Shown one piece after another: positions 22,834 to 53,481 of a DNA stretch of 64,000 nt. Position 1 is the first letter of the stretch; the number at the start of each line of letters is the position of its first letter. The notes below the pieces were generated by a model. The model ran no database searches, was not told the DNA's origin, and saw only the letters and a program-made list of their open reading frames with translations. Both the position numbers and the translations under genes were made by a program. This DNA comes from a virus: IMG/VR virus record IMGVR_UViG_3300026078_000019, positions 62,001 to 126,000 of that record; one strand, given 5' to 3'.

Positions 22834-23133
22834 ATGCCGATCACCGCAAAAGAAGCACGACAGACACTTCGCACTCACGCCCTCAAGCATCTTCGAGACG
22901 GATCTCCGTTCGGGGGACGGGGCGCTCTCGACCTCATCAAGGACGCGATCTACGCGCTCGATCCTACGGGGGAGCCTGCGACCAAGAACATGCCCACCGG
23001 GACCGGCCCGGCGCTGGCACGTCTCGACGAAGCCCTGTCGCGTCTCATGGAGGCGTCGCGGTACGTGAGCCAGGAGCTGGGTCATCAGAACGGCGAAGAT
23101 CTGGCCAAGCCCAAGAAGGGGAAGAAGCGCTGA
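22834..23133 (+). CDS. Small protein upstream of the sigma factor
   Basis: 99 residues from ATG 22834 with AAGGAGG. Helical, with a Lys-rich tail (KPKKGKKR). It overlaps the sigma-factor start by one base, so the two are coupled. An anti-sigma or sigma-helper role is conceivable from position, but no motif shows it. Confidence 0.55.
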   Translation: MPITAKEARQTLRTHALKHLRDGSPFGGRGALDLIKDAIYALDPTGEPATKNMPTGTGPALARLDEALSRLMEASRYVSQELGHQNGEDLAKPKKGKKR

Positions 23134-23963
23134 TGCCGACCAAGAAGGAGATCGAGGCGGTCGAGAAGTTCATCAAGGACGCGGCAGACAGCCCGGCCAA
23201 GGTGGAGCGCGCCCATGCCCGGCACGCCGAGCTTCGTGGGCGCCGTGGTGCCGAGCTGAAGCTCTGGGAAACCTGGAAGGACAACGGCAAGAAGCCCGAG
23301 CACCTGGAGCCCCTGCTGAAGTCGCTGGATCCGTTGATCCGCTCGGAGACGACCAAGCGCATGCAGGGGCTCGGTGGGTCGATTCCGCAGATCGCGCTGA
23401 AGAACGCGCTCCGCAACACCGCCGTGGCAGCGCTGGAAAGCTACGACCCGACCAAGGGGACGCAGCTCACCACCCACGTCGTGAACAACTTCATGCGGAT
23501 CACCGACTTCGTCGCGCAGAACCGCAATCCCAAGTACATGCCGCGCGAGGACGTCGAGAAGTACGAGATGTTCCAGAACGCGAAGCGCGAGTTCAAGGAG
23601 CTGAACGGGCGCGATCCTACGCTGACCGAGCTTCAGAGCGCGCTGCCGGCGTGGAAGCCGAAGTACGTCGCCAAGATGTACAAGGGATTCGGATCCGAGG
23701 CCTTCACCGACATGGGTACCGATCTGGAGCACGACGTCCAGGTCGAGGACCCGATCCAGCGCATCCGTGGCGCCTACCATCTCATGCGCAGTGAGCTGAA
23801 GCCGGAAGAACGGCAGTTCGCCGACCTGCACTACCCCGAGGAGGGGACACCGCAGATGTCGATCACCGCCATCTCCAAGAACATGAAGATCCCCGAGCAC
23901 CGCGTCTACCGCATCAAGAAGAGGGTCGAGGCGCTTCTCGCCCCCGTCATCAAGGGACAGTGA
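23133..23963 (+). CDS. Sigma-70-family RNA polymerase sigma factor
   Basis: 276 residues. Around residues 90-125, LESYDPTKGTQLTTHVVNNF matches sigma region 2 (the DP-x-KG-x-x-x-T-x form used in core binding and -10 recognition). GRDPTLTELQSAL looks like region 3. EERQFADLHYP, then SITAISKNMKIPEHRVYRIKK near residues 220-260 is region 4 with its helix-turn-helix. It should bind host core RNA polymerase and redirect it to phage promoters. It lies in an operon behind a CCTATCAGC element. Confidence 0.8.
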   Translation: MPTKKEIEAVEKFIKDAADSPAKVERAHARHAELRGRRGAELKLWETWKDNGKKPEHLEPLLKSLDPLIRSETTKRMQGLGGSIPQIALKNALRNTAVAALESYDPTKGTQLTTHVVNNFMRITDFVAQNRNPKYMPREDVEKYEMFQNAKREFKELNGRDPTLTELQSALPAWKPKYVAKMYKGFGSEAFTDMGTDLEHDVQVEDPIQRIRGAYHLMRSELKPEERQFADLHYPEEGTPQMSITAISKNMKIPEHRVYRIKKRVEALLAPVIKGQ

Positions 23964-23964
23964 C

Positions 23965-24327
23965 ATGGAAATCAGCGCTCTCGTCATCAAGACCCTTTCT
24001 CAGCATCTCGACGTCGATCCGGCCCTGATCAAGCCGGAGACGCGCATCGTCGACGACCTCGGAGCTGACAGCCTCATGATCGTCGAGCTGGTGCTCGCCA
24101 TGGAGGAGCAGCTCGAAATGGACATCTCCGACGAGGAGGTGTTCACGCTCGGCGACGAGTGTACGGTCGCGCTCGCCACCGCCTTCGTCGAGAAGAAGTA
24201 CCGCCAGGGCTACCCGAGTCGGCATCGGGAGGACGAGCCCACGGTGCAGACGCATGGTGTCGTCACCGGCCGCATGTCGTCTTCGGGCCCGAACTACAAC
24301 AACATGCCGCGCGAGGACAAGCACTGA
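23965..24327 (+). CDS. Acyl-carrier-protein-like protein with a DNA polymerase A-like tail
   Basis: 120 residues. Residues 1-75 are a full ACP fold: VDPALIKPETRIVDDLGADSL, with Ser36 of the DSL motif as the expected phosphopantetheine site, then VELVLAMEEQLEMDIS. Residues 95-120 add a tail, TGRMSSSGPNYNNMPR, that matches the motif A region of family A DNA polymerases (TGRLSSS-x-PNLQNIP) and resembles the phage's own polymerase. No fatty-acid or polyketide genes are near. Whether it is acylated, or acts as a protein-interaction module, is unknown. Confidence 0.7.
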   Translation: MEISALVIKTLSQHLDVDPALIKPETRIVDDLGADSLMIVELVLAMEEQLEMDISDEEVFTLGDECTVALATAFVEKKYRQGYPSRHREDEPTVQTHGVVTGRMSSSGPNYNNMPREDKH

Positions 24328-24542
24328 TGCGCTACGCCGTCGTACCGGGAGATAAGATCTCCACCACTTCACTTCGAGCCCGTGATCACGTCTTCTCGCC
24401 CCGCAGCGAAGCGAAGAAGATCATCGACGCCTGGACGGAGTCGCATCTCGGGCTGCGTCACATGTCGGCCCTGAAAGATCTACAGCCTCGCTTGGAGGCG
24501 GCGCTGGAGGCCGCGTACAAGAAGGGACAGGAGGAGCGCTGA
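24327..24542 (+). CDS. Small protein of unknown function
   Basis: 71 residues from ATG 24327, overlapping the ACP-like stop (TGATG). Basic and helical (SEAKKIIDAWTESHLG). Part of the sigma-factor operon. No family recognised. Confidence 0.55.
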   Translation: MRYAVVPGDKISTTSLRARDHVFSPRSEAKKIIDAWTESHLGLRHMSALKDLQPRLEAALEAAYKKGQEER

Positions 24543-50977: not shown

Positions 50978-51415
50978 CTACTCGATCGGTCGTGGGATGG
51001 GGAGTCGGCCCTTCTCGCGAAGGATCTTTGTTTCTTCAGACAGGTCGAGCCTGATCATCCCCCGCTTCTCGATGCCCTGGAGGTAGGCACGAACCTTCTC
51101 CACGACTCGTTGTTGGAGGATGGCCTGGATCGTGCGCACCTCATCGACGCAGATGTCTCCGGCGAACATGCCGGGAAACTCTTCTACGATCTTTGCGTGC
51201 GAGTACAACGCGCCGCGCCCCTCGTGGTAGTAGAGGCCTTGGAAGCCTCCTTCTGCGGACATCCACCCGACCAGAGGACGGAGCCTCACCGAGACCGTGA
51301 AGGTCTCCAGTAGGCCGCCGTCCTCTGACGAGTCGATCTGTTTCGGCACGGAGGAGAGGAAGACTCCGTACCAGCCGCGAGCTTGGAGCAGTTGCATCAC
51401 TTCACGTCCGTCCAT
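50978..51415 (-). CDS. Protein of unknown function between polymerase and recombinase
   Basis: 145 residues. Overlaps the end of the DNA polymerase gene by 19 bases. Mixed alpha/beta (RGWYGVFLSSVPKQ, TFTVSVRLRPLVGW) with a helical, basic end. No motif recognised; its position suggests a replication accessory role. Confidence 0.55.
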   Translation of the reverse strand: MDGREVMQLLQARGWYGVFLSSVPKQIDSSEDGGLLETFTVSVRLRPLVGWMSAEGGFQGLYYHEGRGALYSHAKIVEEFPGMFAGDICVDEVRTIQAILQQRVVEKVRAYLQGIEKRGMIRLDLSEETKILREKGRLPIPRPIE

Positions 51416-53481
51416 CGGTACCCCACTGCACCGTCAGGATCGACCGGCACGGGATACTTCAGCCGGATCGGCCCCCAGTTGTACGGGTCGCCCATCTTCG
51501 CCTTCATGATTTCGGCGCACCGCTTGCTCGACGCCTTCGGGGCGCGCGCAATCAGTTCGTCGTGAACCGTGAGGATGAGGATGCCGCCCAGCTCGTTGAA
51601 CTCCTCGTCGTGCGAGATCTGGAGCATCGCGAGCTTCATCATCTCGGAGCCGGAGCCCTGGATGAGCGTGTTGTAGGCCTGGCGCTCCTCTGCGCGCGCG
51701 AGACCCTGGTTGTAGTTGTTGTTGATGCGGTGCAGCCGGCGCATGCGGCCCAGCATCGTGTAGGTGAACTCGTGGTTGTGTGCGAACTCGTGCATCCGGT
51801 CGATTTCGGCCTTGATGCGTTTGTTCGTGTTGAAGAAGGTCTCGATCAGATCCATCGCGTCCTCTTTGGAACACTTCAGATCTTGAGACATCTTCGTGGG
51901 GCCCTCGCCGTAGAGCGCGCCGAGACCAGAGGTCTTTGCGCCGTCGCGCTTCTTCAGCAGGTAGTACTCGTCGGCCGTCAGCTTGATCGTCTTGTCGGTC
52001 TTGCCGGCGTCCTTACGAGCGATCGCCGCCATGATGCCTTCGTACGAGACCTTGGGGTCCGACTTGTACATCGCTGCGGCGTTCGCGGAGTGGATGTCCC
52101 AGCCGTTCCGGATGGCCTCCATCATCCCTTCTTCCCCAGATAGAGCTGCCGCGATGCGGAACTCGATCTGAGGGTAGTCGAAGTCGATGAGGTCGTAGCC
52201 GGGGTCGGCGATGAAGCAGCCGCGGATCTTGTACGGATCGTTGCGGGTCGGGATGTTCTGCATGTTCGGGCCAGAGGAGGAGAGGCGCGAGGTGCGCGCT
52301 CCGCTCTGGTTCAAACGGCAGTGGATGCGGCCATCCGGTCCCAGCTTCTTCCGCATGCTATCGGGCAACGAGGTGTCGCCGATGATGTCCTTGACGTACG
52401 TGCCGTGAAGCTTCTGGAGCTTCGCCAGCGCGAGCTTGGTGTCGATGAACTGCCACTCCCGTGAGTCCACCTGGCAGCGCAGCTTGAGGATGTTGAGCGT
52501 CTTCTCGTCCGTTGCCGGAGTCGGCTCGCCACTCTTGCCGCCGGCAGTGAACTTGATCGGCTTGAGACCGAAGTGGTCCTTGCCGTACAAGATCTCGCGG
52601 ATGTCCTCGTTCGACTTTGGGTTGAAGTCGTTCTCGTCGGCCTCGCCGGGGTTGAACGCGTAGCCCATGATGTCGAACAGCTTCTTCGTCGCTGCCGCGA
52701 TACCGTCCCGCATTGGACCGTCGATCGACTTGACGTAGTCGACATCGACGAGGAAGCCCGCACGCTCCATCTTCCACAGCACCTTGGTGAGTGGAACCTC
52801 GATCGTCTTGTAGTAGTCGAGGAGCGTGTGGAAGCCGCGTACCATCGTGGTTGGCAGCTCGACGTTCGAGAGGTTCTTAGCCAGATCTGTGGCCCGCATG
52901 TACGTGAAGTACGAGTCGCAGGTGGCGTAGTTCTCTACGATGTCGGGCCGCTCGTCGTAGACGAACAGCAGCTTCTTGCCGACGTCGAGCTGCTTGAATC
53001 GCGCGAACGTGACCTTGTCGAGCCCCAGCTCTTCCGAGACCATGTGCGGATCCAAGAACAGCTCCTTGAAATCACCCCATCGAGCGTCGTAGGCGAACTG
53101 CGCTTGGTCTTTCAGACCGTGATCGCGCGTGTCGTCCTCCATCGCATCCATGTCGATGATGTCCCAGGTCTCGCCCGCCAGTGAGTAACCGGCGTTGGCG
53201 AGGAGGTGGGTGTCGTACTTGGCGTTCGCCAGGTACCAGCGGATCTTCGAGTTCAGGAACAGGGGGTCGAAGAACCCCAGGATGTTGGCGGGGAAGAAGT
53301 AGCGCCGGTCCTCGGTCGCCATCGACCAGAAGAGAACGCGCGACCTCATCACGTCGAGGCCGGTGGTCTCTGTGTCGATGGCGACCGGGCCGCCCCGGTT
53401 CATCAGATACTGGATGATCGGGGCGGCCTGTTCCGGCGTCTCGGCCACCGTCACGGGCGGCAGTAGACGCAGTCTCGGCAT
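51397..53481 (-). CDS. Family A DNA polymerase with 3'-5' exonuclease
   Basis: 694 residues. Exonuclease motifs: AIDTETTGLD near residue 36 and YLANAKYDTHLL near residue 84. Polymerase motif A region: TSRLSSSGPNMQNIPTR near residue 395, then DLIDFDYPQIEFR; motif B: GAKTSGLGALYGEG near residue 510; motif C: TVHDELIA near residue 640. No 5'-3' exonuclease domain, as in T7-type replicases. It should be the replicative polymerase of the phage. Confidence 0.9.
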   Translation of the reverse strand: MPRLRLLPPVTVAETPEQAAPIIQYLMNRGGPVAIDTETTGLDVMRSRVLFWSMATEDRRYFFPANILGFFDPLFLNSKIRWYLANAKYDTHLLANAGYSLAGETWDIIDMDAMEDDTRDHGLKDQAQFAYDARWGDFKELFLDPHMVSEELGLDKVTFARFKQLDVGKKLLFVYDERPDIVENYATCDSYFTYMRATDLAKNLSNVELPTTMVRGFHTLLDYYKTIEVPLTKVLWKMERAGFLVDVDYVKSIDGPMRDGIAAATKKLFDIMGYAFNPGEADENDFNPKSNEDIREILYGKDHFGLKPIKFTAGGKSGEPTPATDEKTLNILKLRCQVDSREWQFIDTKLALAKLQKLHGTYVKDIIGDTSLPDSMRKKLGPDGRIHCRLNQSGARTSRLSSSGPNMQNIPTRNDPYKIRGCFIADPGYDLIDFDYPQIEFRIAAALSGEEGMMEAIRNGWDIHSANAAAMYKSDPKVSYEGIMAAIARKDAGKTDKTIKLTADEYYLLKKRDGAKTSGLGALYGEGPTKMSQDLKCSKEDAMDLIETFFNTNKRIKAEIDRMHEFAHNHEFTYTMLGRMRRLHRINNNYNQGLARAEERQAYNTLIQGSGSEMMKLAMLQISHDEEFNELGGILILTVHDELIARAPKASSKRCAEIMKAKMGDPYNWGPIRLKYPVPVDPDGAVGYRWTDVK

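Follow-up and report, generated by a model that had tools for sequence, protein, structure and literature searches.

A viral acyl carrier protein gene that ends in a DNA polymerase A-like segment

Phage acyl carrier proteins and the gene at 23965-24327

Acyl carrier proteins (ACPs) of phages are small, stand-alone, AcpP-like proteins with a DSL serine, and they are encoded among other small phage genes. Members of PHROG families 5934 and 4154, such as those of Brevundimonas phage Bajun and Xanthomonas phage phiXF1, are built in this way. The ACP encoded by Erythrobacter phage vB_EliS-R6L is of the same kind, and the role of phage ACPs has been described as unclear (PMC5463345). ACPs of isolate phages end after helix IV or bear unrelated extensions. 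Extra C-terminal regions after the ACP domain occur in Prochlorococcus phage P-HM1 and Vibrio phage P018-4, as they do in the protein described here; these extensions are longer than its tail and did not score with a polymerase profile. None of the other phage ACPs examined carries a polymerase tail, unlike the product of the gene analyzed here. The closest described counterpart of that tail is found in phage family A DNA polymerases (PF00476, phrog_17), whose TGRxSSxxPNxQNxP segment is homologous to residues 92-119 of the protein. In a polymerase, this segment provides contacts with substrate and template, and it does so only inside the folded palm. In KlenTaq, the arginine of the TGR element is Arg573. 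For KlenTaq Arg573, a contact with the ring oxygen of the incoming nucleotide's ribose has been described (PMC7155079).

The window analyzed here is a stretch of 64,000 nucleotides and forms part of a virus record of 149,872 bases. On its plus strand, an ORF running from ATG to TGA at 23965-24327 encodes 120 amino acids. Residues 1-79 (23965-24201) form the ACP domain. Pfam PP-binding (PF00550) matched residues 7-61 with 35.6 bits (cut-off 20.8; E 1.1e-8), two PHROG ACP families were hit (phrog_5934 with 1.6e-8, another with 3e-6), and the best match of this half in a PDB sequence search was the Vibrio harveyi ACP 2l0q (3.9e-10). The DSL motif occupies residues 35-37, a column invariant in an alignment of six ACPs, and places Ser36 at 24070-24072. 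A single-sequence structure model of low confidence (mean pLDDT 59.8) showed helices at residues 3-15, 36-50, and 56-81; the top Foldseek matches obtained with it were all ACPs, with TM-scores below 0.5. By its sequence, the product is an AcpP-like acyl carrier protein, and the complete ACP domain with DSL serine announced in the original prediction was thus confirmed. The same prediction had stated that no acyl synthesis genes are near. This held for holo-ACP synthase (PF01648) and AMP-binding enzymes (PF00501), since profile searches detected neither anywhere in the 150-kb record. Modification and loading of the ACP would therefore need the host. The further statement that ACP-like genes are rare in phages had to be corrected to uncommon: 234 phage records matched at E <= 1, and 215 IMG/VR stretches retrieved with one pattern encode a relative.

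The polymerase segment at the C terminus

The polymerase-like segment, PTVQTHGVVTGRMSSSGPNYNNMPREDK, comprises residues 92-119 (24238-24321, plus strand). It was matched by phrog_17, a DNA polymerase family, with 9.2e-5. Pfam DNA_pol_A reached 12.1 bits (E 0.093), which is under the Pfam cut-off, and aligned over positions 109-134 of the 381 in its profile. On residues 92-119, a purpose-built profile of 64 polymerase segments, to which the chimeric ORF did not contribute, scored 34.6 bits (E 7.8e-13 for one protein; SIGNIFICANCE). Many of the 64 had been collected from loci retrieved by motif pattern, a choice that does not affect the PHROG match. When the tail was shuffled 20,000 times at constant composition, the top score was 9.3 bits. 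This result was complemented by searches with the tail alone. tblastn matched 1317 phage records (best E 3e-3), and among the approximately 120 matches listed nearly all were annotated as polymerase, the remainder being hypothetical, unannotated or, in one case, "RNase H superfamily". In the PDB, only two entries were matched, both DNA polymerase I (8jrb, 0.017; 7r0k, 0.048). Nine of the ten columns that are near-invariant in polymerases (at least 90% of the fetched segments) are kept in the tail, namely T, G, R, S, S, P, N, N, and P, and the tenth is changed from Q to N. Part of this column conservation arises by construction, because the polymerase segments were picked by motif expression.

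A short, low-information tail rich in Ser, Pro, and Asn might resemble a polymerase by chance, a notion favored by the length of only 28 residues and by the Pfam score below the cut-off. We give it practically no credence, as no shuffled tail of the same composition approached the score of the real one and PHROG, tblastn, and PDB searches all led to DNA polymerase. The tail is thus judged to be true family A DNA polymerase sequence, in agreement with what had been read from the letters. According to the original prediction, ACP homologues with unrelated tails would mark the match as chance. Such homologues were indeed found, other ACPs being tailless or having unrelated tails, but this indicates that the tail is peculiar to the window lineage and is not evidence for a chance match.

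The product of the chimeric ORF is not a polymerase. Its polymerase part amounts to about 28 residues, whereas motif A, motif B (the O helix), motif C, the exonuclease, and the rest of the palm of family A polymerases are absent. The match stops one residue short of the end of the ORF, leaving only the final His outside. No secondary structure was predicted for the tail (single-sequence model, low confidence).

Distribution and insertion site

The combination of ACP and polymerase tail occurs in one virus alone, as judged from IMG/VR pattern scans and 80 viral ACP loci; no conserved family with more than one independent member emerged from them. Over its entire 64 kb, the window is identical to IMG/VR contig 3300005614_001084; that contig therefore represents the same virus and provides no independent evidence. 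Two scans of viral contigs for a DSL motif followed by the tail motif 151-211 nt farther on returned 99 stretches. Those in frame were polymerases or polymerase fragments with a chance upstream DSL, those out of frame were spurious, and the sole ACP was that of the window virus. A widespread family of ACPs with this tail was rejected on these grounds. A scan with an ACP alignment led to 80 viral loci, the window gene and the 79 best other ACPs. Counted from the D of DSL, 77 of the 80 proteins end after 41-52 residues, one after 63, and the window protein after 86; the remaining one is a long fusion. The polymerase profile scored on none of the 79 others. Plasmid records yielded ordinary ACPs, none with a polymerase tail, and a pattern scan of genome contigs gave host-type polymerases among the matches listed. 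Literature searches found no published report of an ACP-polymerase-tail chimera. PHROG 24950 was considered as a second small protein with the motif and rejected: its profile fits full-length polymerases (positions 17-94 on the polymerase of phage BSTP10), so that it is probably a family of polymerase fragments.

Relatives of the virus were found via its polymerase: G003 (3300045912_000789, polymerase 76% identical), G002 (a 64-kb fragment, 76%), and G004 (3300025018_000098, 54%). An ACP gene was not detected in any of the three, either by protein comparison or with PF00550. In the window, the chimeric gene lies between a gene that is sigma-like by residue pattern and lacks a significant Pfam match (23133-23963, plus strand) and a small gene at 24327-24542 on the same strand, whose start overlaps the ACP stop as TGATG. 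Both flanks are common to G003, the left one with 74% amino acid identity, and the flanking genes differ from those of G003 by about 24% of nucleotides. In G003, the sigma-like gene is joined directly to the homologue of the small gene, as CAGTGATGCG, and in G004 what comes next is the homologue of the gene that succeeds 24327-24542. Comparison of the junctions, CAG-TGATGCG in G003 and CAG-TGAC-ATG...AAGCAC-TGATGCG in the window, delimited an extra block of about 364 bp (23961-24324, plus strand), the ends of which are ambiguous owing to the repeated TGA. Because the relatives are without the gene and the flanks are joined by TGATG in one of them, a single-gene insertion of this length is probable. 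In the simplest reading, the block was gained in the window lineage, although loss in both relatives is possible.

Two Shine-Dalgarno-like sites accompany the chimeric gene on the plus strand. AAGGGA (23952-23957), inside the end of the upstream gene, would be that of the ACP gene; in G003 it precedes the homologue of the small downstream gene instead. GAGGA (24313-24317) lies within the codons of the tail, 9 nt before the start codon of the next gene, and the junction thus retains a plausible ribosome-binding site. Near the ACP site, G003 has an extra gene that is absent from the window (L021:4269-4970); its product of 233 amino acids is amidase-like by eye. The neighborhood thus seems prone to the uptake of single genes.

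Origin and possible role of the tail

The phage possesses a family A DNA polymerase of its own (51397-53481, minus strand; DNA_pol_A 1.8e-73) with the intact segment TSRLSSSGPNMQNIP; it does read TSRLSSSGPNMQNIPTR, as had been claimed. The tail shares 11 of 28 residues and 44 of 84 nucleotides (52%) with it. These values rule out a recent copy of the phage's own gene, and the original prediction was right on this point as well. The closest polymerase segment found was that of Weizmannia phage Youna2 (16/28 residues, 55/84 nucleotides), followed by one from IMG/VR (L129, 15/28). A donor was not found: blastn of the segment gave no meaningful match, and pattern scans for PNY or TGRMSSSGPN returned polymerases sharing at most 15 of 28 residues. 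The signature SSSGPN..NMPR of the tail is phage-like; the bacterial polymerases fetched mostly have PNLQNIP preceded by D, E, or N. Codon usage of linker and tail falls at the 76th percentile of equal-length windows of the phage, pointing to a donor of similar composition or to DNA that has been resident for some time.

Somewhat better than an even chance is given to the reading that a piece of another, phage-type polA was captured in frame by an auxiliary ACP gene and is carried along as a passenger. An AcpP-type gene would have entered the phage lineage as a single-gene insertion between the sigma-like gene and its neighbor; about 84 bp at its 3' end, in frame, would derive from the polA gene of another family A polymerase of phage type. 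Illegitimate recombination probably brought the two parts together, either ahead of the insertion or in the course of it. The ACP half would most likely be an auxiliary carrier, charged by the holo-ACP synthase of the host, and may feed or divert acyl-ACP-dependent reactions of the host during infection; supplementing, diverting, and sequestering acyl groups are all conceivable. The tail would most likely be an unstructured passenger with no polymerase activity, whose last codons may supply the ribosome-binding site for the next gene. The restriction of the match to a short interior part of the Pfam profile, broken off by the end of the ORF, is as expected of a cut fragment, and a tail that lacks a catalytic residue and is predicted to be unstructured favors passivity. 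Several points count against capture. The donor is missing, codon usage shows that the tail is not visibly foreign, landing in sense and in frame is an event of about one in six, and the preservation of nine near-invariant positions out of ten could also reflect selection on the tail. Nevertheless, at the 5% level, one change in ten conserved columns allows for as many as about 0.39 changes per site, so a neutral, recent capture is not rejected.

Selection is the core of another explanation, which appears unlikely to us: the tail may be a functional mimic, as the original prediction proposed. It would then have been acquired or retained for its binding to something that family A polymerases also bind (DNA minor groove, processivity factor, primase, or host sensor), tethering the ACP to the replication machinery or acting as a decoy. 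Still more doubtful is the specific proposal that selection has made the tail imitate the template/primer-contact segment of family A polymerases, whereby a phosphopantetheinylated, acyl-loaded ACP would be directed either to the machinery of replication or to a host factor recognizing phage polymerases. Mimicry accords with the nine kept residues, with the intact ORF, with codon usage suggesting residence in this genome, and with the fusion of some phage ACP domains to other functions, for example in RIIB proteins. However, conservation is not demonstrable in a single virus, the segment works within a folded palm in polymerases and by itself has neither a catalytic residue nor predicted structure, and neutral recent capture fits the retained residues. 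Capture of a polA fragment is preferred because it explains the data with fewer assumptions. It is likewise unlikely that the gene has a long history in this phage group, or was obtained ready-made from another phage that conserves it, and then disappeared from G003 and G004, with the tail belonging to a sparsely sampled ACP family. Phage-typical codon usage, the differing gene content at the site, and the very small number of relatives sampled agree with such a history; the two relatives without the gene, with junctions closed by TGATG, and the absence of a similar ACP from the IMG/VR pattern scans and from the 79 best ACPs speak against it. Only a very slight probability attaches to an assembly or binning artifact that joined two unrelated reads or contigs within the gene. 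A single sequence variant is available, and the second contig may rest on the same reads; yet both ends of the insert coincide with an intact gene junction in which TGATG is kept, and an open frame with phage-typical codon usage throughout is not normally expected of a random misassembly.

The gene, a probable single-gene insertion in a phage, is clearly chimeric: it encodes a protein in which a metabolic carrier is fused to a recognizable piece of a replication enzyme, and it draws attention to phage ACPs. If neutral, it exemplifies how illegitimate recombination at the boundaries between genes lets phage genes gain tails. Under selection, it would hint at a so far unexplored tie between phage replication and acyl carriers, and mimicry, if true, would join acyl carriers to phage DNA replication by a link of a new kind. 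The chimera is curious rather than of demonstrated importance, the functional suggestion being less likely than fragment capture.

Some minor observations were made on polymerases and ACPs of other phages. In Youna2, BSTP10, and Fi4S2, the ORF with the motif is followed by a further polymerase ORF, and small ORFs or an HNH endonuclease lie in the space separating the two; polA of these phages is interrupted beyond the TGRxSSS motif, with introns as the probable cause. The RIIB lysis-inhibition protein of Aeromonas phage ZPAH1 (MW272540.1; L007:1423-2667; phrog_609, 3e-98) begins with an ACP domain (phrog_5934, 3e-12; PP-binding, 9e-7) and also contains a helix-turn-helix. Its carrier serine is replaced (GLDELDVIELV), so that it could not carry phosphopantetheine. 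A second fusion, in IMG/VR 3300046457_000084 (L312:1135-2526), consists of an ACP with intact DSL (PP-binding, 4e-14) and a C-terminal half that is RIIB-like by eye. The annotated ACP of the Kuttervirus Salmonella phage ISTP3 (L141:354-665) reads GGDDLDMIELI, with Ser changed to Asp at the attachment site, and is probably not a carrier.
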